Below, one piece after another: positions 17,431-52,099 of a DNA stretch of 64,000 nt. Position numbers and translations under genes: made by a program. The stretch is from Labyrinthula sp. Ha (taxonomy: Eukaryota > Sar > Bigyra > Labyrinthulida > Labyrinthulaceae): the NCBI GenBank assembly GCA_015227615.1, contig JAALGZ010000008.1, positions 930,001-994,000 of the forward strand, in the 5' to 3' direction. Each line of letters starts with the position of its first letter. Positions within the stretch are counted from its first letter, which is position 1. The notes beneath the pieces are model-generated. The model had not been told where the DNA came from and did no database searches. It saw only the letters and a program-made list of their open reading frames with translations.

Positions 17431-17439
17431 TAGTGGCTT

Positions 17440-18490
17440 AGGTCTATACGAAAAAACAGAGATTTGCTTAATTGGAGCTCATGGTGGTACTCATAAGTCA
17501 AATGAAATTCATTTTTTCTTAGATTTGGGTGCTGGTCTTCATGTGTACTCAAGAAAAGAATTAATGACAAACTTGAGACGCCTTAAAGAACCTCTAGTTG
17601 TTGAGACGTTGTCTGGATTTGTTCTTGTAAATTACATTGAAGACTTTGTAGGATTAGCAGAAACTGGATTGAGTGTAAGACTTACAAATGTTGCTTTTGA
17701 TGAGAACTTAAACCAAAACATGATTGTTTCTACAGGCTTGTTAGCAGACAAGGGTTGGTCCACTAAGTTTGTGAAGGATTGAGCTGAGAGTGTTGATGAA
17801 ACAAAAACCGATAAGTTGGTTGCTAAAAGAGATCAAAACAAGCTGTACTGGTTGTCATTTACAGTCAAAACTAATGTTGTGAAGCTAGGTTCTACACCTG
17901 ACGCAACCATGAAGTGGCATCGTAAGCTTGGACATTCATCTTACCAGACAATGATGAAGACACAGAAGCATGGATTGGTTGATGGACTTCCAAAAGAAAG
18001 GTTCAAGAAATGGAATCAATGCTTAGAGTGTGACTTAGGAAAGTTGTCTGAAAAGATGACCCCTGGTACGACAAAAGTGCACAAGTTCAAAGCAACTAGA
18101 AGATTTGAAAAAGCACATGCAGATCTTGTTGGACCGTTGCCAATCGGAAAAGGTGGGTTTAGATTCATGCTAACTCTTGTTGATGACTACACTAAGTACA
18201 AGTGGACGTTTTGCATTTGCAAGAAATCACAAGTAACCGAGGTGATTAAGGCTTGGTTGAAGAATATGAACAACTTCACATCTAGGAAGCTAATCAACTT
18301 TAAGACGGATCAAGGAAATGAGTTTGTTAACTCATCACTGAAGGAAGAACTTGAGAACCTGGGAGTAGTTGATGATGTGCCACCAAAGTACCATCCCTCG
18401 ATGAATGGGACAGTGGAACGTTGGAATCACTCATTGCAGGATGGCTACAAAGTCCTGCTCATTGACTCTGGATTGACAGCTTATTACTAG
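17440..18490 (+). other. Copia protease-like and integrase region
   Basis: A protease-like FFLDLGAGLHVYS is followed by the gag-pre-integrase segment (WHRKLGHSSYQTM) and the integrase core, with catalytic-type acidic positions in HADLVGPLP, FKTDQGNEFVN and NGTVERWNHS. The order integrase before RT identifies Ty1/copia. Confidence 0.85.
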
Positions 18491-19236
18491 CCTTACGCTG
18501 CAAAGGTTTTACCTACTTACACAACAGACAATTTTCTCTTGTAACTCTGGAAGCGAAGACCCCTTTTAGGTTAATGTATCCAAGAAAACCTCAAGTTGAT
18601 CATCTCTTTGAGTTTGGAAGATTAGGTGCAGCTAGATCTGGAAAACAGCAGAAGAAAAGTAAAATGAAAGGAAGAAAGACAATCTCCCTGGTCTACAAGG
18701 ACAGGGAGTACTTGGTCTACTGGATGGACACTAAGAAAGTAGGAAGTGCACGGTCTGGTCGGTTTTTCAAACGGGTCATTGAAAATGAAGCGGTTTCAGG
18801 AAAACGCAAACGGAATTTAGCTTAATTGAGCCAAATGATGTGGATGTCGAGACTGATGCATCTCAAGAAGAAGAGGAAAGTGAATCACACTAATCAACTA
18901 ATGAATCAACACCTCAGAGTGTGCCAATTGGGCTTAGATGGTCAGAAATTGATGCAGGTAACGTAGTTGAAGGGAAACGGCTTCGCAATGCTGTTGGATT
19001 TACTGCTAAGGCTCTAGAACTACTTCCTCCTAAAAATTTTACGCAAATCACTGGAAGAAAAGACGCAACTGAATTGTTAAATGCATACAACCAAGAAGTG
19101 AAAAGTTTGGAATTCATCGGCGAGTTTGATGTTGTTCAGTTGCGAGATGTTCCTGTCGGTGTGAAACCATTGCCATTGAAAGAGCTGTTCACCATCAAAG
19201 ACAGTGGGAGAAAGAAAGTTAGACTTGAACTAAGAG

Positions 19237-20442
19237 GTGATCTGGAGAAACCTGCTGACAATGAAGAAAACCACATCCCCAACAGGTCATTTTGAGAATG
19301 TAAGGTTGTTGGTCTCAGTTGCTGTATCAAAGGGTTGGAAGATCAGAAGTTTGGATGTGAAGAATGTATACCTCTACGGAAAGTTTGAGAAAGCGGTTTA
19401 CTTAAGACTTTCTGCTGGGCACCCTAAGATCAATGGTAGCATCTGTTAAAAAACCAAATCCTCAATCTACGGTCTTCGAAGTTTACCTAGGAATTGGAAT
19501 GTTTGCATTGATGAGTTTCTAAAAAAACTTGGGTTTGTCAATTGCCCTGTAGATCTATGTCTGTACAAGCGAAACAAAATGTTTTTGTGTTTGTTTGTGG
19601 ATGACATCCTACACATTGGAAAGAGTAATGTGGAGTTGGATGAGTTTGAGCAACAGGTGGAACAACGATTTGAGGTAAGAAAAGAGCTAAATCCAAGGAT
19701 GTTTTTTCGACTCGTGTTGAAATACACTAGAGAAGGCATTCATGTTCATCAACGAATGAAGATTGAGAAAGCTCAAGCGGTAGTTGATCTTGAGAAGAGG
19801 ATTGTTAAAGTACCACTACATGAGAACCTTAAGTTAGAGAATGCCTCAGGCAAACCACTAGCAGATCTTAGACCTTTTCAATCTGTTCTAGCGAGCTTTC
19901 TGCGTATTGCTTTAGGAACTAGACCTGACATTTGTTTTGCTGTTCACGCAATGAGTAGAAGAACTTCATGTGCTACAACGACTGATTTGAAGCTAGTTAG
20001 ACACGTGTTGAAGTACTTGGTAAACACAAAGAACTTGATCCTGTGTTACAAAATCAAAAGTAAGGACGCCGTAAAGCTTGAAATGGAGGTTGATGCATCA
20101 TTTGCAATGGGACCTAAGAAGAAATCAGTTTACGGCTACTTGATCAAGGTTAACAATGCACCCATTTTGTACAGATCTAAGTTGGAACCGTTAACAGCAA
20201 TTTCATCTAGGGAGGCAGAGTACATTGAAACCACAGAAGCTACCAAACCACTCAGGTATATCGCTAATGTTTTAGAGTTTCTTGGGTTGGAGTATACGGA
20301 GCCAATCAATGTTTACAATGACAACATGGGAGCAATCTTAATTGGAAGGTCCAAAGGAAGTGTTGACAGAACCAAGCACATTGAGTTAAAGTTTCATGTT
20401 GTGCAAGAGTTGATTAACATGGGAAAGATTAATCTTAGTTAG
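19237..20442 (+). other. Copia reverse transcriptase and RNase H region
   Basis: RT contains SLDVKNVYLYGKFEKAVYL and LCLFVDDILHIG, the copia V-D-D signature. RNase H follows with DASFAMGPKKKSVYGY, SSREAEYIETTEA and YNDNMGAILIG. Fossil element; not described further. Confidence 0.85.
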
Positions 20443-21112: not shown

Positions 21113-23518
21113 AAATAAAGAACTCTAGTAGAGATAACGACTTTTTTACTGGTACTTGAACCATTATTTCCTCACTTTTCTAGCTAAATTGATATCTCTT
21201 ATCATCTACTTGAATTCTCTTGGTACAGTGTTAGCCAATTTCCTATCACCTCTCAATTTAATTGCAAGTTAAATGATAGAAAATAAATTCATAACTTGAG
21301 GAATGCTGTGACATATGTGATCTAAGAACCACATTGTCGAAACAGAGTGAGCAAATCCAACATAAATTTACGATTGAGAATTTGAGTCAAAAGTACTGGA
21401 AACATAATCACAAACAAGAAAAGGAAATCATAAAGTGGAAACGAGATTCAAATGGTACAAAATCCTGAGCACTGAGAAAAAACTAGAATATCTCGTGCTC
21501 GAAATTCTAGATGAACATTCCTACATGAACCTCAAAATGTGAGGATACAACTATGTTAGTGAATTACAGTATGAGAACTCAAATAGAATATATAACAAGA
21601 ATAGTTCCAAAAAATTTACAGCTTTCACATTCAATCTAAACCATAAGTTATATAGAATATTTTCGAGAGAACAGCATTATAATTAAAGCTGTCTTCAAAT
21701 TTCTGAACTATTATACCGAGTTCTATTTTGAAAAAACTTTGATTGGTCATCCAAAGGAGTTAATATATATTCAGCAATCCATTTGGTATTATACTTATAA
21801 AACAAATTCATGGCTATGGTTTTTATTACACAATACACAATCAATAAAGAGGATAAATCCTTAAAAAATTAACTGAGTTAATGGTAAATAAAGCCCCACT
21901 TATTTTGATACTAAGGATAAAAGCAAGCTCTGATATTTCTATTTACAACTGCATTGATCTAACTATAACTTCCTAGAAGAATTAATTTCTACATATTTTG
22001 TAAATAGTATTAAGTACAAACACGTATCTTTGTTTCTTTTTAAGGTGTTTTTTTCTACACTGTTAATCAAATATTGTTCATGAATAGTATGTTTTCTTAG
22101 ATTTTTTATTGGAGATTAAAGCAAACTGATCTATATTCAAACACACACTCTATCATCATATGAAAGTCAAAAGCATTTATATTTTCTTAAATATAGGATG
22201 ATGAATTTGACAGCATAAAAAAGTATGTAGATTAGAATCTAACTCCTCATACATATTTATACGAGAACAGTAATTTAACTTTTTAAAATATACAGAATAT
22301 ATTAACCTAAGAAAAAACCTCAACTAGATTAAGAAAAACAAAGTAAAAATTTTCTCATGTTTAAACTATAGAGGTATTACAATAATATGTATAAATTATT
22401 GTTTGTTCATTATTGAATGTTACTCAGTGCAAGAATAGTTAAGATAGACCAATTAATAACCAAAATAAAATAAAGAATTCAAAATAAACCTATTGCAATA
22501 ACTATAAAATATTGATAAGAAAGTTGTGTATTTGGAAAACATACATAAATAAGAAAAACAAACCCCAAAATAAACTAGTAGATATAATATTAATCCTTAT
22601 TAATAAAATAATATCTCTTAGTCTTATTAACTTGTTTTCTTTTTGTGTTGGTAAAATATCTATTTCTATAGAGATTGATAGTCTACTTAATTTATCAAAA
22701 TCTTTAGCAAGTTCAGAAAAAGAAAGATCAGAAGGAATAATAATATAAACAAAACGAAACAAAGTATAAAACATAGATATAAGAAAAATATTTTGTGTCA
22801 GCACTAAGAGTTCAAAATTAAAGTTTTCTTGAGATTCCGTATATAGAAGAGTAAATACTGAAAAAACTAAAGGTAAAATTCAAATAAAAACGTGATAGAA
22901 AAGTAAAAACCTTTTCTGAAATTTAAATATTAGTTCCGTATTTTTTCCAAGCAACCGAACTTCTAAACCAATATTTTCTTCAGCTTTTCTTAAATGATAT
23001 TTTGTATATTTAATAAAAAATATATTATTGACTAAACCATAAACAAAAAGAAATGAAATAGTAAACAACAAGTAAATAAAGTTAAATCGGAAAAAAGTAT
23101 CCAAAGATATTAATTTTATAATTGCACAGACAATAAGAAACAAGAAAGTAATAATCAATTGGACATCAGCAGAAAATTTCTTCTTCTTTGTAGACAAATG
23201 AAGAAAATTAACGACAACTGCAATACAACAGACAACAAGAGAAGCTGCATATAAAGTATACATCGTATTATCATGTCTTGAACAAGGTAATCTATTCAAT
23301 AACTCTCTTTTGAACTCACTCAACCTTAGATATTTCCCCCCAAAGTTTGATATATTATTGTACAACTCTCTAGCTCCTTCATTTGTAAACAAAGTTGGTA
23401 TGAACTCAAAAGAATTTGACCAACCATCGTCACAAGTACATATATTTTGTACACAAGTTCCATGAAAACCACATAGCTTTTCAACTGATCCAATATTTCC
23501 TTCATTTGTAAGACACAT
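21113..23518 (-). repeat. Left arm of a 2.4-kb inverted duplication
   Basis: Reverse complement of 49066-51471. Within the broken gene the two positions sum to 72584 throughout, so there are no indels there; a 1-bp A/T-run difference occurs further out. The arms differ by scattered substitutions (an estimated one percent or so). One end falls exactly at the ATG of the 7TM gene. Confidence 0.9.
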
Positions 23519-23593
23519 ATTTAAGTTTTGGTTTGAACAGTGTGCACTTTCTTTGTTTTTTTTATTTCGTTTATATATATGGAAAAAAGCCAT
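22411..23593 (-). pseudogene. EGF-like seven-TM protein, copy 1, broken
   Basis: Same family as the intact gene at 27066-28246. The N-terminal EGF-like motif (LCGFHGTCVQNICTCDDGW) and the first membrane segments are intact. An in-frame TGA interrupts the fourth membrane segment where the intact copy has a Cys codon, and a 1-nt deletion shifts the frame in the sixth. The TGA, the deletion and the 3' end are shared with copy 3, so the lesions predate the duplication. The frame remains open 25 codons upstream of the shared ATG (to 23593), with residues unlike a signal peptide; whether these are translated is unknown. TGA ends RTF1 and the kinesin, so reassignment is not a good explanation. Confidence 0.75.
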
Positions 23594-27065: not shown

Positions 27066-28246
27066 ATGTGTCTTACAAATGAAGGAAATGCTGGACCAAT
27101 AGAAAAGCTATGTGGTTTTCATGGAACTTGTTTACAGAATATATGTATTTGTGACGATGGTTGGTCAAATTCTTTTGAATTCATGCCAACTTTGTTTACA
27201 AATGAAGGAGCTAGAGAGTTGTACAATAATATATCAAACTTTGGGGGAAAAGAACTAAGGTTGAGCGAGTTCAAAAGAGAGTTATTAAATAGATCACCTT
27301 GTTCAAGACATGATAATACAATGTACACTTTATATGCAGTTTCTCTTATTATCTGCTGTGTTGCAATTGTCGCTGGTTTTTATCATTTATCTGTAACAAA
27401 AAAAAGAGAAGAAGGAACATATCCATTTTTTCTTTCTTTTATAGCTTTTATTGTTGGAGCGCTTATGAAGTTGATATCTTTAGACAATGTGTTTCCTTTC
27501 AACTTTATTTTTTCTTTATCAAATATTTTATTTGCATTTGTTCATGGACTTGTTACAAATAGTTTCTTTTTAAAATACACAAAATATCATTTAAGAAAAG
27601 GAAAACTTAATTTTGGACTACAAGTTAAAATATATGGAAGAAATGCAGATGGAATATTTAAAGTTCAACCTAGATTTTTACTTACTCTTCACGTGTTGAG
27701 TTGTATTCTAAGCTTAGCGTTTCCAGTTTTTACTGTAATGGGTCTGAAATTTCAAGAAGAGCTTAATTTTGAGATGTTGGTTTTTTCGCAGGAAATGTTT
27801 ATTTTATTTATATACTATACTATTTTTCGTTTTATTTATGTCATAGTTTTATCTCATCTTGCCTTTTCTGAACTTGCTAAAGATTATTTCAAATTAAGTA
27901 ATTTATCAGATAATACAAAGATTGATGAAACAACGAAAAAGAAAAACGAACTCTTGCTAAGCCTCAGTATTAAGATTATAGGCTTACGAAACCGAATTGT
28001 TTATGCTAATTTGTTTTGGGTTTCATATTTTCTACTTTTTATTTTTATTCCCAGTACACAGTTATCATATCAGTATTTTATTGTTATTCAAGTTGGTATA
28101 TTCTTATTTATTATTTTATTTTAGGTTGTATTTGGCCTTTGATTTGTATTTTTGCTTTAGATAGTATTCCAAAATGTAGTAAAATATCAAAAACTCATGA
28201 AAAACATACAAGTACAGGTGAAAGCTCTATAAAAATATCTCTCTAG
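27066..28246 (+). CDS. EGF-like domain, seven-transmembrane protein, intact copy
   Basis: Two exons (27066-28095, 28125-28246) joined by a 29-nt phase-1 intron give 383 residues ending in TAG. Residues 16-33 (CGFHGTCLQNICICDDGW) match an EGF-like C-x5-C-x4-C-x-C-x2-G-W pattern. About 50 polar residues follow, then seven hydrophobic segments near 86-108, 119-139, 145-170, 203-226, 236-262, 311-330 and 336-355, and a basic, Ser/Thr-rich tail (355-383). The topology resembles an EGF-bearing, adhesion-GPCR-like receptor: N-terminus outside, tail inside. That role is inference; no GPCR signature motif was identified. The ATG is where homology among all copies begins; no signal peptide is visible, so an upstream exon is possible. 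Two broken paralogues and one partial one lie in the window. Confidence 0.7.
28096..28124 (+). other. Intron of the intact 7TM gene (29 nt)
   Basis: GTATAT...TTTTAG, phase 1. Splicing completes the seventh membrane segment (GCIWPLICIFALD). Confidence 0.7.
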
Positions 28247-29180: not shown

Positions 29181-29551
29181 TATTGAGGTTTTCCGTCCAG
29201 ATAAACAAAAACAAACAAGACGTGCGCAACCAGAACGTGTGAACGTAAGGAAATTATAACCAGTAAAGTGTATTCTTGACAGTAAAGTATCCAAATATAG
29301 CTTGAAAAACAGTAAACAGTGAACGAAGACTTTCTTTATTTGAAATCTAACTTTTATTATCACCAATAACAGCTATATTTCACTACTCTTGGGTCACCCT
29401 TAATGACGTGTACGCATAATATCAGTTCCCATAAATCATTAACTCCCCAACTGCACAAATATGCACCCTTATTTCATAATCAAGTCAGCTCAGTTATTAC
29501 ACCGATCAGAAATAAAGTGGCACTTCCTAGTAAACCCGTTTTTACTCAACA
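29181..29551 (-). repeat. Gypsy LTR A (371 bp)
   Basis: 3' LTR of copy A. On the minus strand it runs TGTTG...CAATA. About 14 substitutions separate its first 205 bp from LTRs B and C, while the rest is identical to B. Confidence 0.85.
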
Positions 29552-29561
29552 CCACCTCCTC
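29552..29561 (-). promoter_or_regulatory. Gypsy polypurine tract, copy A
   Basis: On the minus strand GAGGAGGTGG abuts the LTR TGTTG, fixing the boundary. The same tract is at 36528-36537. Confidence 0.65.
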
Positions 29562-29606
29562 ACTTTATTGCCGTCTTCACAATATATCAACATACAGCAC
29601 ACCCAC

Positions 29607-30413
29607 TTATAACATAACTTCATCCCCTACTGATAACCACACTTTCCTTAAATTATTATTTCTGGCGAACAAGTCCAACTTTATAACTCCATCTATACAA
29701 AAGCTATCGATTCTTTCGTAGAACTCTACTGGTTTGCACGAAATGCCCGCTCTCACACCGAAGATAAGCTCCTTGCCAAAGAACCTAGTCTTTAACTCTC
29801 TTGGAAATTCCCCCACAAGTCCTATAAGACATTCCTCAGTACAACTACCAGTAACTACACCTTGTGACGAAACTACCTTCTCATGCGCAGACATCTTCAC
29901 CCACAAAAATCTCTCTAAATGTTCAATTCCATTTCTTTTCATTAACTGCAGAATCACTTCCTTCTTTGAAGGTAATTTCCAAATAAAAAATAGTACATTT
30001 CTTCCCAATTTTTCCAAATTTAGGAGACTAATATCAGCGTCACTCATCGTGTTGTACAAGATCTGCGGACCTCTCACCGGATCTGATGAAAAAATGCGGT
30101 ATGGCGGATCCATAGTGACTATTGGAAACCTCTCAGTACAAGCGGCCAGATAATCCTGAACCCTCATTCGACATGTCCTTGCACCTATTGGTTTTTTCCA
30201 GAAGTATATCCTCAGCTTTCGCCCTATCACATCCAACCTTACCAGATTCGCAATAACCGCTTTCTCAAAACTACACTCCGCTATAACCAACTTGCTCCCA
30301 GTGAACTCATTATCGACAATCTTCCTAGCCTTCTTCTTATACAACTCAATTTCCTTCCCTCTTTCCCACAACTTATCAATCAATAGGATCACCACGTCCC
30401 TTAACTCCTTCAC
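29607..30413 (-). other. MT-A70-family adenine methyltransferase domain, copy A
   Basis: Open frame of 268 codons ending 55 bp from the 3' LTR. In order it has FPIVTMDPPYRIF, whose DPPY (residues 102-105) sits where METTL3 has DPPW; YNTMSDADISLLNL (121-134), like the METTL3 M-S-D-x-E segment; LFFIWKL; FLWVKMSAHEKVV; EECLIGLVGEF; VRAGISCKPVEFYERI (220-235), matching the V-R-x-T-S-H-K-P-x-E-x-Y-x-x-I SAM-binding stretch; and LDLFARNNN then WLSVGDE (246-265), matching E-L-F-G-R and W-x-x-x-G-N. Known relatives methylate N6 of adenine in RNA or DNA. This is the position of the extra 3' gene in some LTR elements. The first codon in frame is GTG, so the true start is undetermined. Confidence 0.85.
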
Positions 30414-30583
30414 TGAGCTAGACCACTTTGGCAGGCCATTCCATTTAACCTAACCTCCACGAATCAGCTCATTCAATTTATTAAGAACCTTTTTAACCCT
30501 TCAATGGATAAGAAATCATACGCCTCAACTCCTTCAAACCGATTAGCAAATCTATCATTCTCTTCCTGCATTCTAGTGTATCT

Positions 30584-30847
30584 TCATCTCGTGAACATCC
30601 TCCTAACCAACATCGCTTCCTTTTTCAGAGGTAAGCTCAGAACCCTATACTTATCCCCGAAATTGGTAATATATTGCTTTCTCACCTTCTCCATATTCAA
30701 TTTTAACCCATGAAACTCCTCCAATGACTGCTTCCGAAGATACCTTTGGATTTTATTATAAATCCGCTGCTTGTTTTTACTCGGCAGATGCTTCCGGATC
30801 ATTTCAAAATCACCCGTCCCATATATCTTAACACAATACCTCAGCAC
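30584..30847 (-). other. Myb/SANT-like segment upstream of the methyltransferase, copy A
   Basis: VLRYCVKIYGTGDFEMIRKH followed by LPSKNKQRIYNKIQRYL has the spacing of a Myb/SANT repeat: an aromatic in helix 1, G-x-x-x-(W/F) between helices 1 and 2, and a basic third helix with conserved aromatic. Such repeats bind DNA or histones. The match is by pattern only and the third hydrophobic position is atypical. Confidence 0.45.
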
Positions 30848-31147
30848 TTCAAACTCATAAATACTCCAGTTCCTTTGAACAATTCAACCATCAGATTCAA
30901 CTACAATTAGATCCTTCTCCACTTTCCTAACTAAGTCATTCACCATATCAACATCAGCCCGTACAATTTTATTGACCTGCAAGTCTCCCCAATACATTCT
31001 CTCCGGAAACGCCAGCTTTGGAAACTACGTCACCTCCAGTTTCCATCTAGAAGACGTGTTACCTAAGAAGTTTATAATCATCGACGGTATATCCTCGAAC
31101 AATGAAAATGCAGCTTCCCACATATCCCTGTCCATCATGAAACCCTT

Positions 31148-32091
31148 TCATCTCACTTTGAACCGGAATTCCCCAATTGTGGTCTTCCTCACGTCCACTA
31201 TCTCCTCCACCTCCAGGCGATCATGGTCTAGAATACATACTGCGCGTGTATCCGCACTAGGCAGAAAACTACTAGGAGTGTAAAGGATAAGTAACCAAGC
31301 GTGTCTAACCTTTTCGTTCCCGCTCAAATCTATAATCTTGCATAACGTGTTTGAGATGATTTCCACGACTTGAACTAGTCCCGTCCAGCTGGGACAACAC
31401 TTATCGTTATTTTCAGACTCAAACCCTTTCTCATACAGTACAACATATTCGCCCGGGTGAAAGTTTATTGGCTTCAGTCGTTCGTTCATCCTCTTGTTAG
31501 CTTGGTATCGGTACAATAAACCCTTCCTATATACATCCTCTTGATAACTTCTAATTCTCTCCTGTAACTCTTCTGATATTCTTCTCAGGCTTCGGACGTC
31601 ACGTTCAGTTAACTGCAGCATCTCACCACCCATCAACTATACCCTAGGGTTCAATCCCATTAATAATTCAATCGGGGATTTATTCCCCCTCTGCAGGTTA
31701 ACGGCGTGGAATTCAGGAAAGCCTGTACCGTCAAAATCACTTCATTCCAACAATTAGATGGTAATCCAAGTTCAAATACAAGGAATCTCAAGTGTCGAAG
31801 AACCTCTCGGTTCTGCACTTCAACCGTACCAGCGGTCTGCGAGATATACACTGCAGTTACTCGATGAGTACCATTACAACTCTTCAGAAATTCATTCACC
31901 ATCCTGTTAACAAAATGGCTGCCATGATCGGTAACAAGTAGAAATTCAGACGCCAGATGAAAATGTGCGTGCCACTTCCATAATGCTTTAACTATCTCTT
32001 TCGCTTCCACCTTCTGGAAAAAACACAATGAAGTTGTTCGCGTTAAACTATTAACCATCGTAAGTATCCACCCCGAATTATTGATGTACAA
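31148..32091 (-). other. Gypsy integrase core and C-terminal region, copy A
   Basis: Core acidic positions lie in GWILTMVDSLTRT, FLLVTDHGSHFVN and GTVEVQNREVLRHL, the D, D, E pattern. The C-terminal part (31148-31636) contains FHPGEYVVLYEKGFES and a beta-rich WTGLVQVVEIISNTLCKI, like the SH3-like integrase C-terminal domain. No chromodomain was recognised. Confidence 0.8.
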
Positions 32092-32139
32092 GAATCACTA
32101 TACAACACTTGGCGTGCATCTCTCCCAAATTCACTAACA

Positions 32140-32879
32140 TTCAATGGTCTTTTTATGATTAAGAAGCGCCGCTGACAATGTAAGCATTGCTTCATAAATC
32201 TCTTTATTGTCTACAGGAATATCGCTTTTAAACCCTTCTCAATAGTATAATGCTTCCTGATAAATTCAGCTTCCCGTTTTTCAGCCACATGGTTAAAGAC
32301 CGCGCGTGCATGTGCTATATTAAATGGAATTAAGTGCCTGGAAAGAACTGTTTTCCCCCTTTCTCTCCATACTTCCTTCAAGTTCCTATTGCCGGGCTGC
32401 TGTATCTTCAAAACAAACAATTTATCCATTGCCCCCCCCCCCCAAGATGTAACAGGGCTACGATTACTACTGGGGTGCCTCCCACTCACATGAAAACTGT
32501 CCACAAGTTTCCAATATTCTTCTTCCGCAGGAGTCATTATCTTCACTGGAATTTCCCCCTCTCCAGTGGCTTCCGGGTTCATCCAGCGACTGATGATGTC
32601 TGGTGGGATGTTCCTATACCCCGGTAGATGATAAACCTTCAAGTTCATGGTCATAAAATTGGCTGCCCAACGACGCAGTCGTACAGCTTACGCTTTTGTG
32701 CGAACCTGTTTCGGCGACAGTATTTCCACTAAGTTTCGATGGTCCGTGAATAGAATCGTTTCACGGAAATTATATAGCAAGTAGTAAGGAAAATTCTTAG
32801 GAGCCGCCACCACCGCGAACAATTCTTTCGAACTAATGTACCGTTCCAATGACGACCCCCTGAAGGTACCGCTAGTCAT
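32140..32879 (-). other. Gypsy RNase H and zinc-binding region, copy A
   Basis: RNase H traits are SSKELFAVVAAPKNFPYYL and ILFTDHRNLVEIL. Further on, LIPFNIAHARAVFNH and a nearby C-x2-C suggest the H2C2 zinc-binding region before integrase. A C12 homopolymer (32432-32443) lies in the span. Confidence 0.65.
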
Positions 32880-33004
32880 GGAAATAATTCTGAAATTCGA
32901 AGCACAAGGATTCTTAACATTCGCTTTCTCCTCCGTTTGAGCTAGAATTAGGCTCCAGCAAAAATCACTTGCATTGCACCCAAGTAAGTAGGTTCCAGAT
33001 ACTT

Positions 33005-33862
33005 TTAATGTTCCAAAGTTCGATGTAAAGATTTTCTCAGTGCTTCCTTTAGCTGTTCAAAGGCGTCCTTCATTTCTTCCGTCCATTTTATTAGTAGCTC
33101 CTTCCCCTCTAATGTCTTGATCTTCCCAGCTATACTGCAGTTCCTCCTTATTCTATGGCGTAATTTAGAAAAGCCTGGTAAAATAGAATAGAGACAATTT
33201 GCCGTGTAAATAAACTGGGCCATCTCATCCACGTATTTTGTATTCGCCCGAGATAATAGCTCATGTACGTATGAGCGGTCATATTGGTATCCTGAGCCAT
33301 CCACTTTTCTTCCACAGAAGGTAGCAAATGAGCCCACCAAATGACATTTATCTACATTCAATCGTAAGTTCAGTTCCTCTATTCTTCTCAGATATTTTTC
33401 CAATATTGTGAACAGCTCCTCTAGTGATCTAACCATAAAGACCGTGTCATCGATCCATTGCATGTAGTTCCTCGGCCATGTTTCAGCCTTCAATAGTACA
33501 TCGTAGATCTGGTGCATACTAAATAATGATGGAGTGTTGCTCCACCCTTTGGGTGCTCACTTAAAACTATACGCAACCCCTGACGATGTAGTGAGAGTAA
33601 ATAAACGTCCTGTTTCCATTGTACAAGGAAAGTAATCAAAACCTGACAACAAATCAAAGGAACTAAAAAAATTCATCTTCCTAGCCCGCAACAGTTGTAC
33701 CTTTATTTTTGGTAAACTGTTACTAACCTTCTTCGTTATCTTATTTAGTGGTCGAAAATCCGCCACCAGCCTAAATTTCTTAGACCCTTTCTTCGGTACG
33801 AAAAGTACCACCATTGCCGTAGTCGGGTTATTGTCAACACGAATGATGTCGGCCTTTAGCAT
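33005..33862 (-). other. Gypsy reverse transcriptase region, copy A
   Basis: VVLFVPKKGSKKFRLVADFR and FFSSFDLLSGFDYFPCTME are the early RT motifs; YMQWIDDTVFMV is the catalytic D-D motif; LNLRLNVDKCHL follows. Typical Ty3/gypsy. Confidence 0.85.
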
Positions 33863-33927
33863 CTACTTAAGTCTACGATCGAGGAATTCATCTTGCTTGT
33901 AGCATAGTGGGTGCTGGTTTAATACAC

Positions 33928-34518
33928 CTACCGACTTACTCTCCATAACATTGCATAGAATTGGGGTAAGTTACTCAATACAGTAGGAGATTCCCCATCT
34001 CCGAATGAACAGCTGTATCTTACAAATAGGGATGTAAATCTTGTTCTCCAGACCTCAGAATTGTTGAATACTTTAAGATCAAAATATCTCATCATTGTTA
34101 GCAACTTAGCTGTTATTGTTTTCTTATCTTCCTCACGGCTCACTTCCAGATTAGCTCCTACATCGATCTTTCCATCGGTGTCAAAATCCCCTTCTTCATC
34201 CTCTGGACTAAAGTTGACAGGTTCGTCCGAACAGAGTTTTGCAGGCCAAGATATCGCCCTAACCATTTGTCCAAATTCTTCTTCTGGAGGCAAAATATAT
34301 TCAACATCATCATCATCTCTTTCAACTTCAAGCTTTCCTAGCTTCAAGACTCTTTCACCCTTCCACTCCTCCACTTCTCGATACCAGTTGACATCCTCCT
34401 CGTACATTGCAGTTGTCTTCTTCACGCTAGCCAAATCCTTCAAAAACCAGCCTACTAATGGACAGCTCCACTTCATCACTTTCACTTCCACTCTGCTTGC
34501 TTGCATCTTACTCCTCAA
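33928..34518 (-). other. Gypsy region between protease and RT, copy A
   Basis: Acidic 196-codon stretch (VERDDDDVEYILPPEEEFG) without a recognised domain; a linker ahead of RT is likely. Confidence 0.5.
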
Positions 34519-35378
34519 AGCCGAGATTGGGTCCAGACAACGATATCTCAGAACACCGTTCCCAATTATTATATCATCCCACTTTTAAACTTCTAAGATC
34601 ATAGCATAAACATTTGGCAAAATATATGTAGTAGCATCAATAAAAATCTTCACCTCTTTCATGTAACCAACCTCGTGCACTTCATATTGAAATCCTCATG
34701 CCGCAACTACCTTCCCAGGGTTCCTCAGTTTAACTACCTTCGTACAGAATCTTTTCAACCTGGAGTTGATAGCGCTTCTGAAAGCACCACTATCCAGCAA
34801 AGCAAAAATCATCTGCTTTCCTCCATTTATTTTTACTTTAACTTCTGCATCTCTATACACCCTAGTATATCTAATAACCTTAGGGTGGTACTTAAAGCTC
34901 CTTTAAACTCTACCTGCCACGGTATTCTTCTCCGCTAAACAGTTCATCATGATGTCATCTCCAAATAATTCGTTAGCGTGTTGAATGTGATCGCGCTCAT
35001 AATCCTCTCCCTCTTTGATCTCATTCAACTGAGCTATTCTTGTATCCTCAGAATGCTTCACTCCATCCATGGATATTTGCGTTCGGTTCATTGCTTCCGT
35101 CAAATCTATGATAATAGAAGCATCATTCCTATCTTCTTCAATACCAGCAAAATTATTATTCTCCTACATTTCTCGTTTCTGATCCCCCTTCTTCTTCCAC
35201 CTCACAATGTATTTATCCCATCTTTCATTAAGTGTTCTCAAACTGGGCCGTTTGTATCTTGGGTTGCTGTGATTCTTTAACCAACACCCCGCTTCATGGT
35301 GACCGAAGAAGAAGCAGTAAAGACGTAGATACTTTTCTTGGACTCTGCACAGCCCAAAATGCCCAGTTTTCTTGACTG

Positions 35379-36080
35379 CTATTTTGTAACATTCATTTCC
35401 TTCGCCCTTGCTATCACATGTTTCGGAGGTATACGGGACAAAATGTATTTCTTAAGGTTCTTCCTGACCTTACTCTCCAGACAATTCCTGGTTTCCAAGT
35501 CCTTATGTCTCACCCAAATGTAATTAGGGAGTATTGAAAATATGGCTTTTGCTATCTGTTTGGGTTTGATCTTTACACTAGATGGTAGCTCTGTAACTAA
35601 CTTACTCACCTTGATAAACACCAATTCCACAACTTCTCCCGGTTCGATATCTTCCCTGAACTCTACATATTTTTTTATCATCTCCCCTATGGTTAAATCC
35701 TCCCTAATTTTATTCTTTTTCAATTTCTCCTTCAAGTATTTTATAATGCTCTCATTTGATACCGTTTTTCCTAACGCCTCCATCGCTTCATGAATTTTAA
35801 AATAGATTCTCTGCTTCAATTTGATCACAGCTTTCTGTTGATCACTCAAGTGTTCATATTGGTACAAGAATTTTTCAATTACTTCGACTGAAAAGTCTCC
35901 AAGTTCCTCTATCTCGGGAGTTTGATTTACTAAAGTTAGCGTCAGGGTGGTTAATATTTTCATATGATCCTCGTTTAATTCTTGTAGCATCTTCTTCATT
36001 TGGGTTTGATATATCGCCGTAGGAGTAGTATCTTTATTTTCTTCTCCAATCATAATTTCAGACCTGTAATAGAATATCAC
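35379..36080 (-). other. Gypsy gag region, copy A
   Basis: 233-codon helical frame just inside the 5' LTR. Near 35285-35320 a zinc-knuckle-like FFFGHHEAGC follows, as expected for nucleocapsid. Confidence 0.7.
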
Positions 36081-36156
36081 TTGGTTTTTTCCTGCTTCTT
36101 AAAAAACTTCTCTGTATAAATTCACTCTAGTTCCAGGAAAGTTTTCAATATTGCAA

Positions 36157-36527
36157 TATTGAGATTTTCCGTCCAGATAAACAAAAACAAACAAGATGTA
36201 CGCAACCAGAACGTGTAAACGTAAGGAAATTATAAGCAGTAGAGTGTATTCTTGACAGTAAAGTATCCAAATATAGCTTCAAAAACAGTAAACAATGAAC
36301 CAATACTTTCTTTATTTCAAATTTAACTTTTATTACCACCAATAACATCTATATTTCACTACTCTTGGGTCACCCTTAATGACGTGTACGCATAATATCA
36401 GTTCCCATAAATCATTAACTCCCCAACTGCACAAATATGCACCCTTATTTCATAATCAAGTCAGCTCAGTTATTACACCGATCAGAAATAAAGTGGCACT
36501 TCCTAGTAAACCCGTTTTTACTCAACA
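36157..36527 (-). repeat. Gypsy LTR B (371 bp), shared and chimeric
   Basis: 5' LTR of copy A and 3' LTR of copy B. Left part matches LTR C, right part matches LTR A. Confidence 0.9.
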
Positions 36528-36582
36528 CCACCTCCTCACTTTATTGCCGTCTTCACAATATATCAACATACAGCACACCCAC

Positions 36583-37389
36583 TTATAACATAACTTCATC
36601 CCCTACTGATAACCACACTTTCCTTAAATTATTATTTCTGGCGAACAAGTCCAACTTTATAACTCCATCTATACAAAAGCTATCGATTCTTTCGTAGAAC
36701 TCTACTGGTTTGCACGAAATGCCCGCTCTCACACCGAAGATAAGCTCCTTGCCAAAGAACCTAGTCTTTAACTCTCTTGGAAATTCCCCCACAAGTCCTA
36801 TAAGACATTCCTCAGTACAACTACCAGTAACTACACCTTGTGACGAAACTACCTTCTCATGCGCAGACATCTTCACCCACAAAAATCTCTCTAAATGTTC
36901 AATTCCATTTCTTTTCATTAACTGCAGAATCACTTCCTTCTTTGAAGGTAATTTCCAAATAAAAAATAGTACATTTCTTCCCAATTTTTCCAAATTTAGG
37001 AGACTAATATCAGCGTCACTCATCGTGTTGTACAAGATCTGCGGACCTCTCACCGGATCTGATGAAAAAATGCGGTATGGCGGATCCATAGTGACTATTG
37101 GAAACCTCTCAGTACAAGCGGCCAGATAATCCTGAACCCTCATTCGACATGTCCTTGCACCTATTGGTTTTTTCCAGAAGTATATCCTCAGCTTTCGCCC
37201 TATCACATCCAACCTTACCAGATTCGCAATAACCGCTTTCTCAAAACTACACTCCGCTATAACCAACTTGCTCCCAGTGAACTCATTATCGACAATCTTC
37301 CTAGCCTTCTTCTTATACAACTCAATTTCCTTCCCTCTTTCCCACAACTTATCAATCAATAGGATCACCACGTCCCTTAACTCCTTCAC
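36583..37389 (-). other. MT-A70-family methyltransferase domain, copy B
   Basis: Same 268-codon frame as copy A and identical in protein sequence, including DPPY and the C-terminal SAM-binding motifs. Confidence 0.85.
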
Positions 37390-37559
37390 TGAGCTAGACC
37401 ACTTTGGCAGGCCATTCCATTTAACCTAACCTCCACGAATCAGCTCATTCAATTTATTAAGAACCTTTTTAACCCTTCAATGGATAAGAAATCATACGCC
37501 TCAACTCCTTCAAACCGATTAGCAAATCTATCATTCTCTTCCTGCATTCTAGTGTATCT

Positions 37560-37823
37560 TCATCTCGTGAACATCCTCCTAACCAACATCGCTTCCTTTT
37601 TCAGAGGTAAGCTCAGAACCCTATACTTATCCCCGAAATTGGTAATATATTGCTTTCTCACCTTCTCCATATTCAATTTTAACCCATGAAACTCCTCCAA
37701 TGACTGCTTCCGAAGATACCTTTGGATTTTATTATAAATCCGCTGCTTGTTTTTACTCGGCAGATGCTTCCGGATCATTTCAAAATCACCCGTCCCATAT
37801 ATCTTAACACAATACCTCAGCAC
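37560..37823 (-). other. Myb/SANT-like segment, copy B
   Basis: Identical to the copy A segment; about 170 bp upstream of the methyltransferase frame in element orientation. Confidence 0.45.
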
Positions 37824-38123
37824 TTCAAACTCATAAATACTCCAGTTCCTTTGAACAATTCAACCATCAGATTCAACTACAATTAGATCCTTCTCCACTT
37901 TCCTAACTAAGTCATTCACCATATCAACATCAGCCCGTACAATTTTATTGACCTGCAACTCTCCCCAATACATTCTCTCCGGAAACGCCAGCTTTGGAAA
38001 CTACGTCACCTCCAGTTTCCATCTAGAAGACGTGTTACCTAAGAAGTTTATAATCATCGACGGTATATCCTCGAACAATGAAAATGCAGCTTCCCACATA
38101 TCCCTGTCCATCATGAAACCCTT

Positions 38124-39067
38124 TCATCTCACTTTGAACCGGAATTCCCCAATTGTGGTCTTCCTCACGTCCACTATCTCCTCCACCTCCAGGCGATCAT
38201 GGTCTAGAATACATACTGCGCGTGTATCCGCACTAGGCAGAAAACTACTAGGAGTGTAAAGGATAAGTAACCAAGCGTGTCTAACCTTTTCGTTCCCGCT
38301 CAAATCTTTAATCTTGCATAACGTGTTTGAGATGATTTCCACGACTTGAACTAGTCCCGTCCAGCTGGGACAACACTTATCGTTATTTTCAGACTCAAAC
38401 CCTTTCTCATACAGTACAACATATTCGCCCGGGTGAAAGTTTATTGGCTTCAGTCGTTCGTTCATCCTCTTGTTAGCTTGGTATCGGTACAATAAACCCT
38501 TCCTATATACATCCTCTTGATAACTTCTAATTCTCTCCTGTAACTCTTCTGATATTCTTCTCAGGCTTCGGACGTCACGTTCAGTTAACTGCAGCATCTC
38601 ACCACCCATCAACTATACCCTAGGGTTCAATCCCATTAATAATTCAATCGGGGATTTATTCCCCCTCTGCAGGTTAACGGCGTGGAATTCAGGAAAGCCT
38701 GTACCGTCAAAATCACTTCATTCCAACAATTAGATGGTAATCCAAGTTCAAATACAAGGAATCTCAAGTGTCGAAGAACCTCTCGGTTCTGCACTTCAAC
38801 CGTACCAGCGGTCTGCGAGATATACACTGCAGTTACTCGATGAGTACCATTACAACTCTTCAGAAATTCATTCACCATCCTGTTAACAAAATGGCTGCCA
38901 TGATCGGTAACAAGTAGAAATTCAGACGCCAGATGAAAATGTGCGTGCCACTTCCATAATGCTTTAACTATCTCTTTCGCTTCCACCTTCTGGAAAAAAC
39001 ACAATAAAGTTGTTCGCGTTAAACTATCAACCATCGTAAGTATCCACCCCGAATTATTGATGTACAA
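38124..39067 (-). other. Gypsy integrase region, copy B
   Basis: Counterpart of 31148-32091 with a few substitutions. Confidence 0.8.
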
Positions 39068-39115
39068 GAATCACTATACAACACTTGGCGTGCATCTCTC
39101 CCAAATTCACTAACA

Positions 39116-39855
39116 TTCAATGGTCTTTTTATGATTAAGAAGCGCCGCTGACAATGTAAGCATTGCTTCATAAATCTCTTTATTGTCTACAGGAATATCG
39201 CTTTTAAACCCTTCTCAATAGTATAATGCTTCCTGATAAATTCAGCTTCCCGTTTTTCAGCCACATGGTTAAAGACCGCGCGTGCATGTGCTATATTAAA
39301 TGGAATTAAGTGCCTGGAAAGAACTGTTTTCCCCCTTTCTCTCCATACTTCCTTCAAGTTCCTATTGCCGGGCTGCTGTATCTTCAAAACAAACAATTTA
39401 TCCATTGCCCCCCCCCCCCAAGATGTAACAGGGCTACGATTACTACTGGGGTGCCTCCCACTCACATGAAAACTGTCCACAAGTTTCCAATATTCTTCTT
39501 CCGCAGGAGTCATTATCTTCACTGGAATTTCCCCCTCTCCAGTGGCTTCCGGGTTCATCCAGCGACTGATGATGTCTGGTGGGATGTTCCTATACCCCGG
39601 TAGATGATAAACCTTCAAGTTCATGGTCATAAAATTGGCTTCCCAACGACGCAGTCGTACAGCTTACGCTTTTGTGCGAACCTGTTTCGGCGACAGTATT
39701 TCCACTAAGTTTCGATGGTCCGTGAATAGAATCGCTTCACGGAAATTATATAGCAAGTAGTAAGGAAAATTCTTAGGAGCCGCCACCACCGCGAACAATT
39801 CTTTCGAACTAATGTACCGTTCCAATGACGACCCCCTGAAGGTACCGCTAGTCAT
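39116..39855 (-). other. Gypsy RNase H and zinc-binding region, copy B
   Basis: Counterpart of 32140-32879; the C12 run is the same length here (39408-39419). Confidence 0.65.
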
Positions 39856-39980
39856 GGAAATAATTCTGAAATTCGAAGCACAAGGATTCTTAACATTCGC
39901 TTTCTCCTCCGTTTGAGCTAGAATTAGGCTCCAGCAAAAATCACTTGCATTGCACCTAAGTAAGTAGGTTCCAGATACTT

Positions 39981-40838
39981 TTAATGTTCCAAAGTTCGAT
40001 GTAAAGATTTTCTCAGTGCTTCCTTTAGCTGTTCAAAGGCGTCCTTCATTTCTTCCGTCCATTTTATTAGTAGCTCCTTCCCCTCTAATGTCTTGATCTT
40101 CCCAGCTATACTGCAGTTCCTCCTTATTCTATGGCGTAATTTAGAAAAGCCTGGTAAAATAGAATAGAGACAATTTGCCGTGTAAATAAACTGGGCCATC
40201 TCATCCACGTATTTTGTATTCACCCGAGATAATAGCTCATGTACGTATGAGCGGTCATATTGGTATCCTGAGCCATCCACTTTTCTTCCACAGAAGGTAG
40301 CAAATGAGCCCACCAAATGACATTTATCTACATTCAATCGTAAGTTCAGTTCCTCTATTCTTCTCAGATATTTTTCCAATATTGTGAACAGCTCCTCTAG
40401 TGATCTAACCATAAAGACCGTGTCATCGATCCATTGCATGTAGTTCCTCGGCCATGTTTCAGCCTTCAATAGTACATCGTAGATCTGGTGCATACTAAAT
40501 AATGATGGAGTGTTGCTCCACCCTTTGGGTGCTCACTTAAAACTATACGCAACCCCTGACGATGTAGTGAGAGTAAATAAACGTCCTGTTTCCATTGTAC
40601 AAGGAAAGTAATCAAAACCTGACAACAAATCAAAGGAACTAAAAAAACTCATCTTCCTAGCCCGCAACAGTTGTACCTTTATTTTTGGTAAACTGTTACT
40701 AACCTTCTTCGTTATCTTATTTAGTGGTCGAAAATCCGCCACCAGCCTAAATTTCTTAGACCCTTTCTTCGGTACGAAAAGTACCACCATTGCCGTAGTC
40801 GGGTTATTGTCAACACGAATGATGTCGGCCTTTAGCAT
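39981..40838 (-). other. Gypsy reverse transcriptase region, copy B
   Basis: Counterpart of 33005-33862; same D-D motif. Confidence 0.85.
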
Positions 40839-40903
40839 CTACTTAAGTCTACGATCGAGGAATTCATCTTGCTTGTAGCATAGTGGGTGCTGGTTTAATA
40901 CAC

Positions 40904-41494
40904 CTACCGACTTACTCTCCATAACATTGCATAGAATTGGGGTAAGTTACTCAATACAGTAGGAGATTCCCCATCTCCGAATGAACAGCTGTATCTTACA
41001 AATAGGGATGTAAATCTTGTTCTCCAGACCTCAGAATTGTTGAATACTTTAAGATCAAAATATCTCATCATTGTTAGCAACTTAGCTGTTATTGTTTTCT
41101 TATCTTCCTCACGGCTCACTTCCAGATTAGCTCCTACATCGATCTTTCCATCGGTGTCAAAATCCCCTTCTTCATCCTCTGGACTAAAGTTGACAGGTTC
41201 GTCCGAACAGAGTTTTGCAGGCCAAGATATCGCCCTAACCATTTGTCCAAATTCTTCTTCTGGAGGCAAAATATATTCAACATCATCATCATCTCTTTCA
41301 ACTTCAAGCTTTCCTAGCTTCAAGACTCTTTCACCCTTCCACTCCTCCACTTCTCGATACCAGTTGACATCCTCCTCGTACATTGCAGTTGTCTTCTTCA
41401 CGCTAGCCAAATCCTTCAAAAACCAGCCTACTAATGGACAGCTCCACTTCATCACTTTCACTTCCACTCTGCTTGCTTGCATCTTACTCCTCAA
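40904..41494 (-). other. Gypsy region between protease and RT, copy B
   Basis: Counterpart of 33928-34518. Confidence 0.5.
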
Positions 41495-42354
41495 AGCCGA
41501 GATTGGGTCCAGACAACGATATCTCAGAACACCGTTCCCAATTATTATATCATCCCACTTTTAAACTTCTAAGATCATAGCATAAACATTTGGCAAAATA
41601 TATGTAGTAGCATCAATAAAAATCTTCACCTCTTTCATGTAACCAACCTCGTGCACTTCATATTGAAATCCTCATGCCGCAACTACCTTCCCAGGGTTCC
41701 TCAGTTTAACTACCTTCGTACAGAATCTTTTCAACCTGGAGTTGATAGCGCTTCTGAAAGCACCACTATCCAGCAAAGCAAAAATCATCTGCTTTCCTCC
41801 ATTTATTTTTACTTTAACTTCTGCATCTCTATACACCCTAGTATATCTAATAACCTTAGGGTGGTACTTAAAGCTCCTTTAAACTCTACCTGCCACGGTA
41901 TTCTTCTCCGCTAAACAGTTCATCATGATGTCATCTCCAAATAATTCGTTAGCGTGTTGAATGTGATCGCGCTCATAATCCTCTCCCTCTTTGATCTCAT
42001 TCAACTGAGCTATTCTTGTATCCTCAGAATGCTTCACTCCATCCATGGATATTTGCGTTCGGTTCATTGCTTCCGTCAAATCTATGATAATAGAAGCATC
42101 ATTCCTATCTTCTTCAATACCAGCAAAATTATTATTCTCCTACATTTCTCGTTTCTGATCCCCCTTCTTCTTCCACCTCACAATGTATTTATCCCATCTT
42201 TCATTAAGTGTTCTCAAACTGGGCCGTTTGTATCTTGGGTTGCTGTGATTCTTTAACCAACACCCCGCTTCATGGTGACCGAAGAAGAAGCAGTAAAGAC
42301 GTAGATACTTTTCTTGGACTCTGCACAGCCCAAAATGCCCAGTTTTCTTGACTG

Positions 42355-43056
42355 CTATTTTGTAACATTCATTTCCTTCGCCCTTGCTATCACATGTTTC
42401 GGAGGTATACGGGACAAAATGTATTTCTTAAGGTTCTTCCTGACCTTACTCTCCAGACAATTCCTGGTTTCCAAGTCCTTATGTCTCACCCAAATGTAAT
42501 TAGGGAGTATTGAAAATATGGCTTTTGCTATCTGTTTGGGTTTGATCTTTACACTAGATGGTAGTTCTGTAACTAACTTACTCACCTTGATAAACACCAA
42601 TTCCACAACTTCTCCCGGTTCGATATCTTCCCTGAACTCTACATATTTTTTTATCATCTCCCCTATGGTTAAATCCTCCCTAATTTTATTCTTTTTCAAT
42701 TTCTCCTTCAAGTATTTTATAATGCTCTCATTTGATACCGTTTTTCCTAACGCCTCCATCGCTTCATGAATTTTAAAATAGATTCTCTGCTTCAATTTGA
42801 TCACAGCTTTCTGTTGATCACTCAAGTGTTCATATTGGTACAAGAATTTTTCAATTACTTCGACTGAAAAGTCTCCAAGTTCCTCTATCTCGGGAGTTTG
42901 ATTTACTAAAGTTAGCGTCAGGGTGGTTAATATTTTCATATGATCCTCGTTTAATTCTTGTAGCATCTTCTTCATTTGGGTTTGATATATCGCCGTAGGA
43001 GTAGTATCTTTATTTTCTTCTCCAATCATAATTTCAGACCTGTAATAGAATATCAC
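42355..43056 (-). other. Gypsy gag region, copy B
   Basis: Counterpart of 35379-36080; the protein is identical. Confidence 0.7.
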
Positions 43057-43132
43057 TTGGTTTTTTCCTGCTTCTTAAAACACTTCTCTGTATAAATTCA
43101 CTCTAGTTCCAGGAAAGTTTTCAATATTGCAA

Positions 43133-43503
43133 TATTGAGATTTTCCGTCCAGATAAACAAAAACAAACAAGATGTACGCAACCAGAACGTGTAAACGTAA
43201 GGAAATTATAAGCAGTAGAGTGTATTCTTGACAGTAAAGTATCCAAATATAGCTTCAAAAACAGTAAACAATGAACCAATACTTTCTTTATTTCAAATTT
43301 AACTCTTATTACCACCAATAACATCTATATTTCACTACTCTTGGGTCACCCTTAATGACGTGTACGCATAATATCAGTTCCCATAAATCATTAACTCCCC
43401 AACTGCACAAATATGCACCCTTATTTCATAATCAAGTCAGCTCAGTTATTACACCGATCAGAAATAAAGTGACACTTCCTAGTAAACCCGTTTTTACCCA
43501 ACA
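43133..43503 (-). repeat. Gypsy LTR C (371 bp)
   Basis: 5' LTR of copy B and the outer right edge of the array; followed by TGTG (43504-43507). Confidence 0.85.
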
Positions 43504-47544: not shown

Positions 47545-49098
47545 TGTGCAACTGCAGCTAGAGCTTAGATTTTGAAGAGTATTTTAGACGTTTGACCGGT
47601 CTATATAGCAAATACAACCTGGAATATATCAGTGATACCTGAAAAACCACCAGGTTGAAACAAAACTCCCTCATTTTGCACGAGTTAATAGAGTACTAGG
47701 CTTTGCTATCGTCTCAGAAGTAACCACTAGACAATAGATTAGTACTACTGAACAGCTAACGAACGTATGACTGAGAACTATATCGCAGTGTTCAATAGTT
47801 GGGTCTTGAGACTAATAGGGGAAACTTAGAAGTTCTTGTTGGAATGCTAGCTTTCTTTCGCCACGACTACTGGTGTTTAGCAAGAAACAACCGTGTTTGC
47901 CAATAAAATATTGAAGATAGCTATAACACTGGCTGCTAAACCGGTTGGGGAAACCGGTCGAGGAAATGGGGACAACTGGGCATGTCAAGCAAGAGTTCTC
48001 GAAAAGTTTTCGCTAATATGTAAGACATGACCAGTGGTAAAAAATTGATGTTTCCTTCCGAGCAGTTATTTCTAGCGAATTTCATTTTTGTGGTCTATTT
48101 CGAATTCATTTAATTACGAAACATTATAATCGAGAATTATCATTTGAGCAACTCTTTTTGTCTTCGGTATTATTCTTGAGTGTCAAAGTTTAAGTATTGT
48201 CTTGAAAGGCTAAGACTATATCAATACCCTGCGAAATCAACTAGTTCGCTCAACAGTATTATTTTCATATTTTAGTGAAGAGTTTGAACGGTACACAGCA
48301 CTTTCACAACTTTATATTCCTTGACGGAAACACCTATCATCATGATATATCTTCTAGCAGATCACTTAATATCTTAGTTCTTGGACATATTTTACTAAGC
48401 GCCTGGTTTCATAGAAACAGAGGCTTCAATTGGTATAGCAGATTCAACTTAAACTCAGTCTTTAACGCTTTGTATCTATAGAAATTAGATTTTGACTTCT
48501 TTTTCATGGGTTGAAGCATATTTGCTTTAAGCTTGAGGCAAATTAAGCAAAAAAGCCATAATAAAAAGATTCACTTGCTGGAAAGCTAAGCCGTTTCGTT
48601 TACTTCTAAAGCTTTGTATTTCCCCAATTAATAATATCCTGGCCATATATATCTTTGTTAAATGTTTGACCAAGAAAACCATACAATATTTCTTTTCCTT
48701 CTCGACTCGTTTCGATAGGATAATGTTAAACTTTACTTCGAGAAGTTTGTTCAGAGCTAGTTTCATTAATAAGATCGAATTCATTGCGTCAACTTCGTAA
48801 ATAATACAGTAATGACATATTTTGTTCTTCTTTGTTCAACGACCAAAAACAAATCCCAGCAGTAAAATAACTGATACAAACACGAAAATGGGTTTATCCT
48901 GACTCTAAATACATATTACTCTACTACCCACTGTGTTAAACCAGATGTGCTGAAACAAAATCTAACGACCAAGATATCTAACTTCTCCGTTCTTTTCTCT
49001 TTTAAACTTGTGTCATAAACAAAACCAAAAAAATATAACCTAGACTATCTAAACATAAGCTAAATATGTGTCTTACAAATGAAGGAAATATTGGATCA
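47545..49098. repeat. Direct duplication, first copy
   Basis: Matches 62446-64000 at an offset of 14901 (14902 after a 1-bp run difference), with well under 1% differences. It contains the 1.5 kb upstream of 7TM copy 3 and the first codons of that gene. The first copy must continue past 49098, but the second leaves the window. Confidence 0.9.
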
Positions 49099-52010: not shown

Positions 52011-52099
52011 ATCTCCCTATTTTCTAACTTTTGAAGAGGTGTACACGTTCTCCATTCCTAGACACCCCCTTGGAAAAAGTCGTCTCACCAGATCAGGGA

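Follow-up and report, generated by a model that had tools for sequence, protein, structure and literature searches.

The window analysed here, a 64,000-nucleotide stretch of the Labyrinthula sp. Ha genome (contig JAALGZ010000008.1, positions 930,001 to 994,000), contains on its minus strand (29181-43503) a tandem array of a Ty3/gypsy retrotransposon, in which three long terminal repeats (LTRs), each about 371 bp long, alternate with two internal units at a period of 6976 bp. Each unit holds, close to its 3' LTR, an open frame for an MT-A70 adenine methyltransferase (MT) domain. In this study we compare the array with its relatives in the same genome, in which the MT domain closes the Pol frame and is preceded by a domain resembling P1, the DNA-binding subunit of a DNA N6-methyladenine (6mA) writer.

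The gypsy array of the window

Both MT frames comprise 268 codons and have identical translations, in which all the motifs named by a first-pass annotation of this DNA are present (DPPY, MSDADI, FLWVK, VRAGISCKPVEFY and LFAR...WLSVGDE). The assignment to MT-A70 was borne out by the PF05063 profile, which is matched over its whole length (1-172) with an E-value of 4e-19 and 69.6 bits against a cut-off of 23.9. The distance of 55 bp between frame and LTR had also been given correctly, the stop codon ending at 29607 and the LTR at 29551. Two tandem gypsy units had rightly been recognized, with a span (29607-37389) that is too small for the array delimited above. A 4-bp direct repeat, TGTG, stands outside both outermost LTRs. 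Compared over 6976 positions, the two units differ at 25, of which 14 lie inside the LTR, while the upstream Pol is interrupted by frameshifts and stops that form an identical set in both copies; the element was thus probably already defective when it was duplicated.

The window units align from residue 1 to 2180 with L047, the nearest full-length relative in hand, whose MT domain is 66% identical to that of the window. In this alignment the order of reverse transcriptase (RT), RNase H and integrase is kept, though in broken frames. The chromodomain of the window fragment itself gave no Pfam match at E <= 1 and was placed by homology to L047 only, and a Pfam scan of the gag-region frame of copy 1 returned no credible match. 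The coordinates are collected in Table 1.

Table 1. Parts of the tandem gypsy array, in window coordinates
Feature	Position	Strand	Evidence
LTR, 3' end of element copy 1, 371 bp	29181..29551	-	direct repeat
Middle LTR, common to both copies	36157..36527	-	direct repeat
LTR, 5' end of element copy 2	43133..43503	-	direct repeat; TGTG beyond outer LTRs
MT-A70 frame, copy 1, 268 codons, DPPY	29607..30413	-	translation, Pfam, PDB profile match
MT-A70 frame, copy 2, translation as copy 1	36583..37389	-	translation
P1-like (Myb) segment, copy 1	30677..30877 (C132:960677-960877)	-	E 1.8e-7; about same position as P1-like domain of L047
P1-like (Myb) segment, copy 2	37653..37853 (C132:967653-967853)	-	E 1.8e-7
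Chromodomain, copy 1, approximate, stop-interrupted	31100..31215	-	homology to L047 residues 1646-1683
Integrase core fragment, copy 1	31660..32091	-	rve E 1e-4 (below Pfam cut-off); L047 alignment
Integrase core fragment, copy 2	38636..39067	-	L047 homology only
RNase H region, copy 1, approximate	32660..32993	-	L047 homology
RT, copy 1, two broken frames	33005..33862	-	RVT_1 E 1.5e-5 and 1e-5 (below Pfam cut-off); L047 homology
RT, copy 2, two broken frames	39981..40838	-	L047 homology
Gag-region frame, copy 1, 233 codons	35379..36080	-	aligned to L047 residues 1-240
Gag-region frame, copy 2	42355..43056	-	L047 homology

Intact relatives and the kinship of their P1-like and MT domains

The genome (50.8 Mb, 153 contigs) was searched with PF05063 and 150 of 354 candidates were scored, all 150 above the cut-off; by hand count, 37 of these matches are free of stops and lie in an open frame of at least 1,400 amino acids (aa). 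Twenty stretches around long frames were retrieved, and 19 Pol frames were scanned with Pfam, L034, a near copy of L033, being left out of the scan and of the trees. The order in intact relatives is RT, RNase H, integrase, chromodomain, P1-like Myb domain and MT-A70. Indeed, MT-A70 and the integrase core (rve, E <= 0.01) were found in 19/19 Pol frames, RVT_1 or RNase H in 18 (the exception, L040, is truncated by the limit of its stretch), and a chromodomain at E <= 0.01, with several matches below the Pfam cut-off, in all except L038, L040 and L049. MT-A70 is C-terminal in every frame, with tails of at most 83 residues, and an aspartic protease lies upstream in just three (L037, L041 and L047). 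A single frame of 2,061-2,358 aa spans the whole element in 12 of the 20 stretches; in L031, L039, L043, L044 and L049 the Pol frame is preceded by another frame, from which a single in-frame stop codon separates it. LTR pairs of 87-100% identity are present in 18 of the 20 stretches, and the exact detected ends carry a 4-bp repeat in 6/19 arrays, that of the window among them (a raw count, with no shuffle control).

Judged by sequence, the Pol domain order and the paired LTRs with a short target-site repeat place these elements in the Ty3/gypsy class. The chromodomain after the integrase, seen in 16 of the 19 Pol frames and placed in the window by L047 homology only, would further make them chromoviruses, the chromodomain-bearing Ty3/gypsy elements with the order RT, RNase H, integrase and chromodomain, from which they differ in adding the P1-MT module after the chromodomain and, in some, a retropepsin-like segment between P1 and MT. 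The first-pass annotation was therefore right to put the MT domain inside the element; what it took for a separate open frame is, in intact relatives, the C-terminal part of the Pol frame. Since relatives carry MT in frame with Pol, a separate host gene adjoining the LTR was rejected.

The retropepsin-like segment lies behind the integrase and not before RT, and was observed in L033, L031, L032, L036, L040 and L046. The matches are weak: DSGA in the A1 clade with an E-value of 0.0035 (0.0067 at best in another search), RVP at 6e-4 in L040, and a reading by eye in L046.

Between chromodomain and MT-A70 lies the stretch that matches P1, the Myb-like subunit. For a profile of four such stretches P1 was the sole PDB match at 1e-3 (E 4e-25), over P1 residues 21-157, which reach beyond the Myb fold, and a profile made only from a stand-alone P1-like frame of this genome and Tetrahymena P1 recovered 19/19 Pol frames, with E-values from 4e-25 to 1.3e-6. 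The match in several deep clades comprises little beyond the Myb part; with the profile of the A2 clade, to which the window belongs, P1 (1e-11) scores above c-Myb (1e-3).

Compared with the PDB, the MT frame of the window matched MTA1 with an E-value of 1e-29, METTL3 with 4e-11 and METTL14 with 5e-6, and the A2 profile gave 1.5e-55 for MTA1 against 4e-29 for METTL3. MTA1 was the best solved relative of the element MT domains in these comparisons; thus the MT-A70 family stands as first annotated, and the proposed kinship with METTL3, METTL14 and METTL4 gives way to MTA1/AMT1. In the PDB tables the top match is entitled 'MT-a70 family protein', and P1 and MTA9 appear by name in related entries; we take these to be the entries of the Tetrahymena MTA1c DNA 6mA complex.

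With an MTA1-like and a P1-like part in one Pol frame, the elements carry, as far as sequence comparison tells, fused relatives of two MTA1c subunits, a point missed by the earlier annotation. The likeness to Tetrahymena MTA1c (MTA1, MTA9, P1 and P2; PDB 7f4l, 7f4r, 7f4s, 7yi8 and 8xyl) lies in the MTA1-like catalytic and P1-like Myb parts, which are separate chains in that complex, whereas here they share one frame and MTA9 and P2 were not found in the element. In searches with the element profiles MTA9 matched the MT domain only and P2 did not turn up; no search for host MTA9 or P2 genes was made.

In the MT tree the eukaryotic rows stand apart from phage MT-A70 (100/100). With few reference rows the inner order is poorly resolved, and METTL3 falls among the element rows.

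A viral or phage origin was considered and rejected. A scan of viral contigs gave 24 loci, 23-34% identical, whose matches cover the MT part (residues 292-482 of 482); RT queries against these 24 loci found nothing, nor did the P1-bearing A1 alignment bring up any relative among viral contigs. The MT stretch was extracted from 18 of the 24, one bearing a stop was dropped, and the remaining 17 form a separate group (100/100). An AlphaFold2 model of the window MT frame alone reached a mean predicted local distance difference test score (pLDDT) of 42 and was not used.

Two stand-alone frames resemble host genes. L008, a frame of 319 aa, matches MTA1 at 3.4e-73 and METTL3 at 8e-36, is unpaired with any listed RNase H or P1-like place, and has in its 1.5-kb flanks three more frames of at least 60 aa, the longest of 154 aa. 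L051 (801 bases) holds a P1-like frame of 226 aa, unpaired with any listed MT or RNase H place. The cell therefore probably has MTA1 and P1 genes of its own, which would be plausible donors. Element MT domains score about equally against L008 and Tetrahymena MTA1, which suggests either an old capture or a different gene as the donor.

Abundance, divergence and selection

From the merged lists, at least 312 distinct MT-A70 places were counted genome-wide, with fragments counted and L008 included. Among the gypsy RNase H places, 150 of 379 candidates were scored, and for 118 of these 150 an MT place is listed on the same strand at a downstream distance of 2281-3336 bp; the controls gave 2 on the opposite strand and 2 upstream. 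The domain is therefore not confined to one captured copy. The count of 118 replaces an earlier pairing with 150 MT places only, which had yielded 71 pairs. The 149 listed P1-like places include 96 with MT 412-1059 bp downstream, 72 with RNase H upstream and 36 with neither, and a listed RNase H or P1 lies upstream of 177 of the at least 312 MT places, 135 remaining unpaired.

The RNase H places without a listed MT downstream include 12 of the 13 best-scoring ones. These 12 may represent a separate gypsy lineage without the P1-MT module; in methylation maps such a lineage would be the obvious reference for comparison.

Other MT places with similar scores also lie in pairs on one strand, 6.8-7.2 kb apart (C132:835172/842412, C62:563456/570271 and C1:1636119/1643108); tandem duplication, as in the three-LTR array of the window, may thus be recurrent. 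The window also contains, on the minus strand at 52096-57605, a second gypsy element, badly decayed and from another clade (L049 being nearest), with a decayed MT-A70 at its end (C132:982006-982653, many stops).

RT and MT distances were compared among 17 of the genome's own elements, the rows of the RT tree; L038 and L040 were left out because their RT stretch is too short or absent. The correlation is 0.93, and 0 of 20000 permutations were as high. The MT tree reproduces two of the RT groups with starred support, namely six elements of the window's clade, joined there by the window row, and L044 with L050. A third (L031, L032, L033, L035 and L036) recurs with weaker support.

Since synonymous distances (dS) are saturated for most deep pairs, only the ratio of nonsynonymous to synonymous differences (pN/pS) within clusters and a comparison of nucleotide with protein identity were used. 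This check across natural copies, of the dN/dS type suggested by the first-pass annotation, gave pooled pN/pS values for the MT domain of 0.20, 0.18, 0.10, 0.39 and 0.14 in five clusters. Moreover, the window family has three further LTR pairs (C71, C122 and C87), each holding an MT stretch at the same place, with 81-87% protein identity and internal stops. Two of these copies are 85 and 83% identical in nucleotides and 85 and 81% in amino acids, where simulated neutral drift gave 71 and 67%, with maxima of 80 and 76% in 2000 draws each. At the level of sequence, these patterns demonstrate purifying selection on the MT domain. A host gene fused once by accident and devoid of function is scarcely credible, being contradicted by the at least 312 places, the parallel divergence of RT and MT and the purifying selection, even if many copies have decayed, both window copies included.

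Of the 23 element domains compared, 17 have DPPW or DPPY as motif IV, that of the window being DPPY; the 23 are not independent, L033 and L035 being near copies. The motif is cut off in L038, for which a separate frame reading gave DPPW, DPPY or DPPF. In 22/23 domains, all but L036, the R..N motif retains its asparagine, which in METTL3 contacts the cofactor. As motif IV is kept in the majority, most element domains look able to catalyse.

Proposed function and known systems

We propose, with somewhat more confidence than doubt, that an old and diverse group of gypsy elements, most with a chromodomain, took up relatives of P1 and MTA1/AMT1 as a C-terminal extension of Pol and uses them to mark its own DNA with adenine methylation. 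By analogy, the most likely function would be methylation of the element's own new DNA. The P1-MT part would travel with integrase into the pre-integration complex and would methylate adenines in the new cDNA or in the freshly inserted copy, the Pol fusion behind integrase and chromodomain carrying the writer to the insertion site. The 6mA deposited by MTA1/AMT1 is a mark of active regions poor in nucleosomes, in ciliates as in other eukaryotes; a methylated insertion could thus acquire the host's mark of active, nucleosome-poor promoters and escape silencing. MTA1 needs its partner MTA9, and since the searches showed no MTA9-like domain in the element, it may borrow partners from the host, MTA9 for example. 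A captured methylase might also, as the first-pass annotation had it, recruit permissive chromatin. Evenly poised, in our judgement, is the fuller proposal that a selfish element stamps each insertion with the host's active-promoter mark through a P1 and MTA1 module and arrives pre-licensed for transcription, such elements then becoming the commonest gypsy elements of the genome.

Several results weigh against self-marking by an old captured module. Thirty-two of the 150 scored RNase H places have no listed MT downstream, and an MTA9-like second MT domain, sought between P1 and MT, was not found there, the A1 clade having its retropepsin-like stretch. The C87 copy of the window family (93% in nucleotides, 87% in amino acids) fits neutral decay. 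The approximately unbiased test does not reject a tree in which the element MT domains form one clade (p-AU 0.387), which does not demonstrate one origin; the tree with phage rows, from which L035, L046 and L049 were omitted, needs 3 changes of the element label; and the RT tree, unlike the MT tree, joins L046 to the A1 clade (100/99). To these are added the scores of METTL3 and the changes in motif IV, each of which bears on another explanation.

The A1 clade profile gave 2.7e-47 for MTA1 and 1.7e-40 for METTL3, and with L033 alone the two tie. Such closeness, in a family that includes RNA writers, would suit an MT domain that methylates element RNA (m6A) and steers its translation, packaging or decay, as METTL3 does. 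We hold this to be quite improbable in view of the P1-like segment ahead of MT in 19/19 Pol frames, the wide lead of MTA1 in the window's own clade, and a position behind integrase and chromodomain that points to chromatin.

Motif IV is changed in 5/23 domains (DPAW in two, DAPW, DLPF and DPPG in one each), and DPAW was read in 14/30 loci. If catalysis were dispensable, the module, with P1 and the chromodomain as its targeting parts, could direct the element to 6mA-marked or MTA1c-bound chromatin or titrate the host complex; this is unlikely given the motif retained in the other domains and the pN/pS range across five clusters, and DPAW domains may still be active. Finally, expression from many copies could work in trans, and DNMT-bearing elements have been suggested to affect the host epigenome (PMC5890265), so that the methylase might act on host chromatin broadly or mark rival elements, self-marking being incidental. 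This appears very doubtful, as the in-frame Pol fusion favours a role within the particle or the integration complex.

Self-marking of this kind has a parallel in the self-methylation proposed for DNMT-bearing elements (PMC5890265), and the capture of cytosine methyltransferases by retrotransposons, mentioned in the first-pass annotation, is in print: in KnitGypsy-Dnmt3 of Klebsormidium nitens, a Gypsy element captured Dnmt3 (de Mendoza et al. 2018, PMC5890265). That enzyme is a cytosine Dnmt3 and the repeats have DIRS structure according to a figure legend of the same paper, whereas here an adenine-type MT-A70 is joined by a P1-like partner between ordinary LTRs. DIRS elements, as described in PMC5890265, also bear an adenine methyltransferase; they belong to another element class and their N6-adenine methylase is like bacterial Dam, in contrast to the eukaryotic-type MT-A70 found here. 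Beside these earlier captures of Dnmt3 and of a Dam-like enzyme (PMC5890265), what would be new is the joint uptake of relatives of a eukaryotic 6mA writer, catalytic and Myb subunits together, and their retention while the elements diverged deeply. As this one genome holds many elements, some with an intact catalytic motif and others with an altered one, it would moreover allow the question whether 6mA instructs open chromatin in eukaryotes to be put to a natural test. We know of no gypsy element with MT-A70 and a P1 partner described before.

Other retroelement frames lie near the gypsy array, one Copia-like (17056-20442, plus strand) and one LINE-like (12953-16286, minus strand), typed from their translations; their sole profile support is a weak RVT_2 match (E 0.023). 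The frames at 22880-23593, 27066-28124 and 49066-49629 form a small family; their EGF-like match is weak, and several transmembrane stretches can be made out by eye. Two of the copies are inverted relative to each other and 89% alike over 348 bp.

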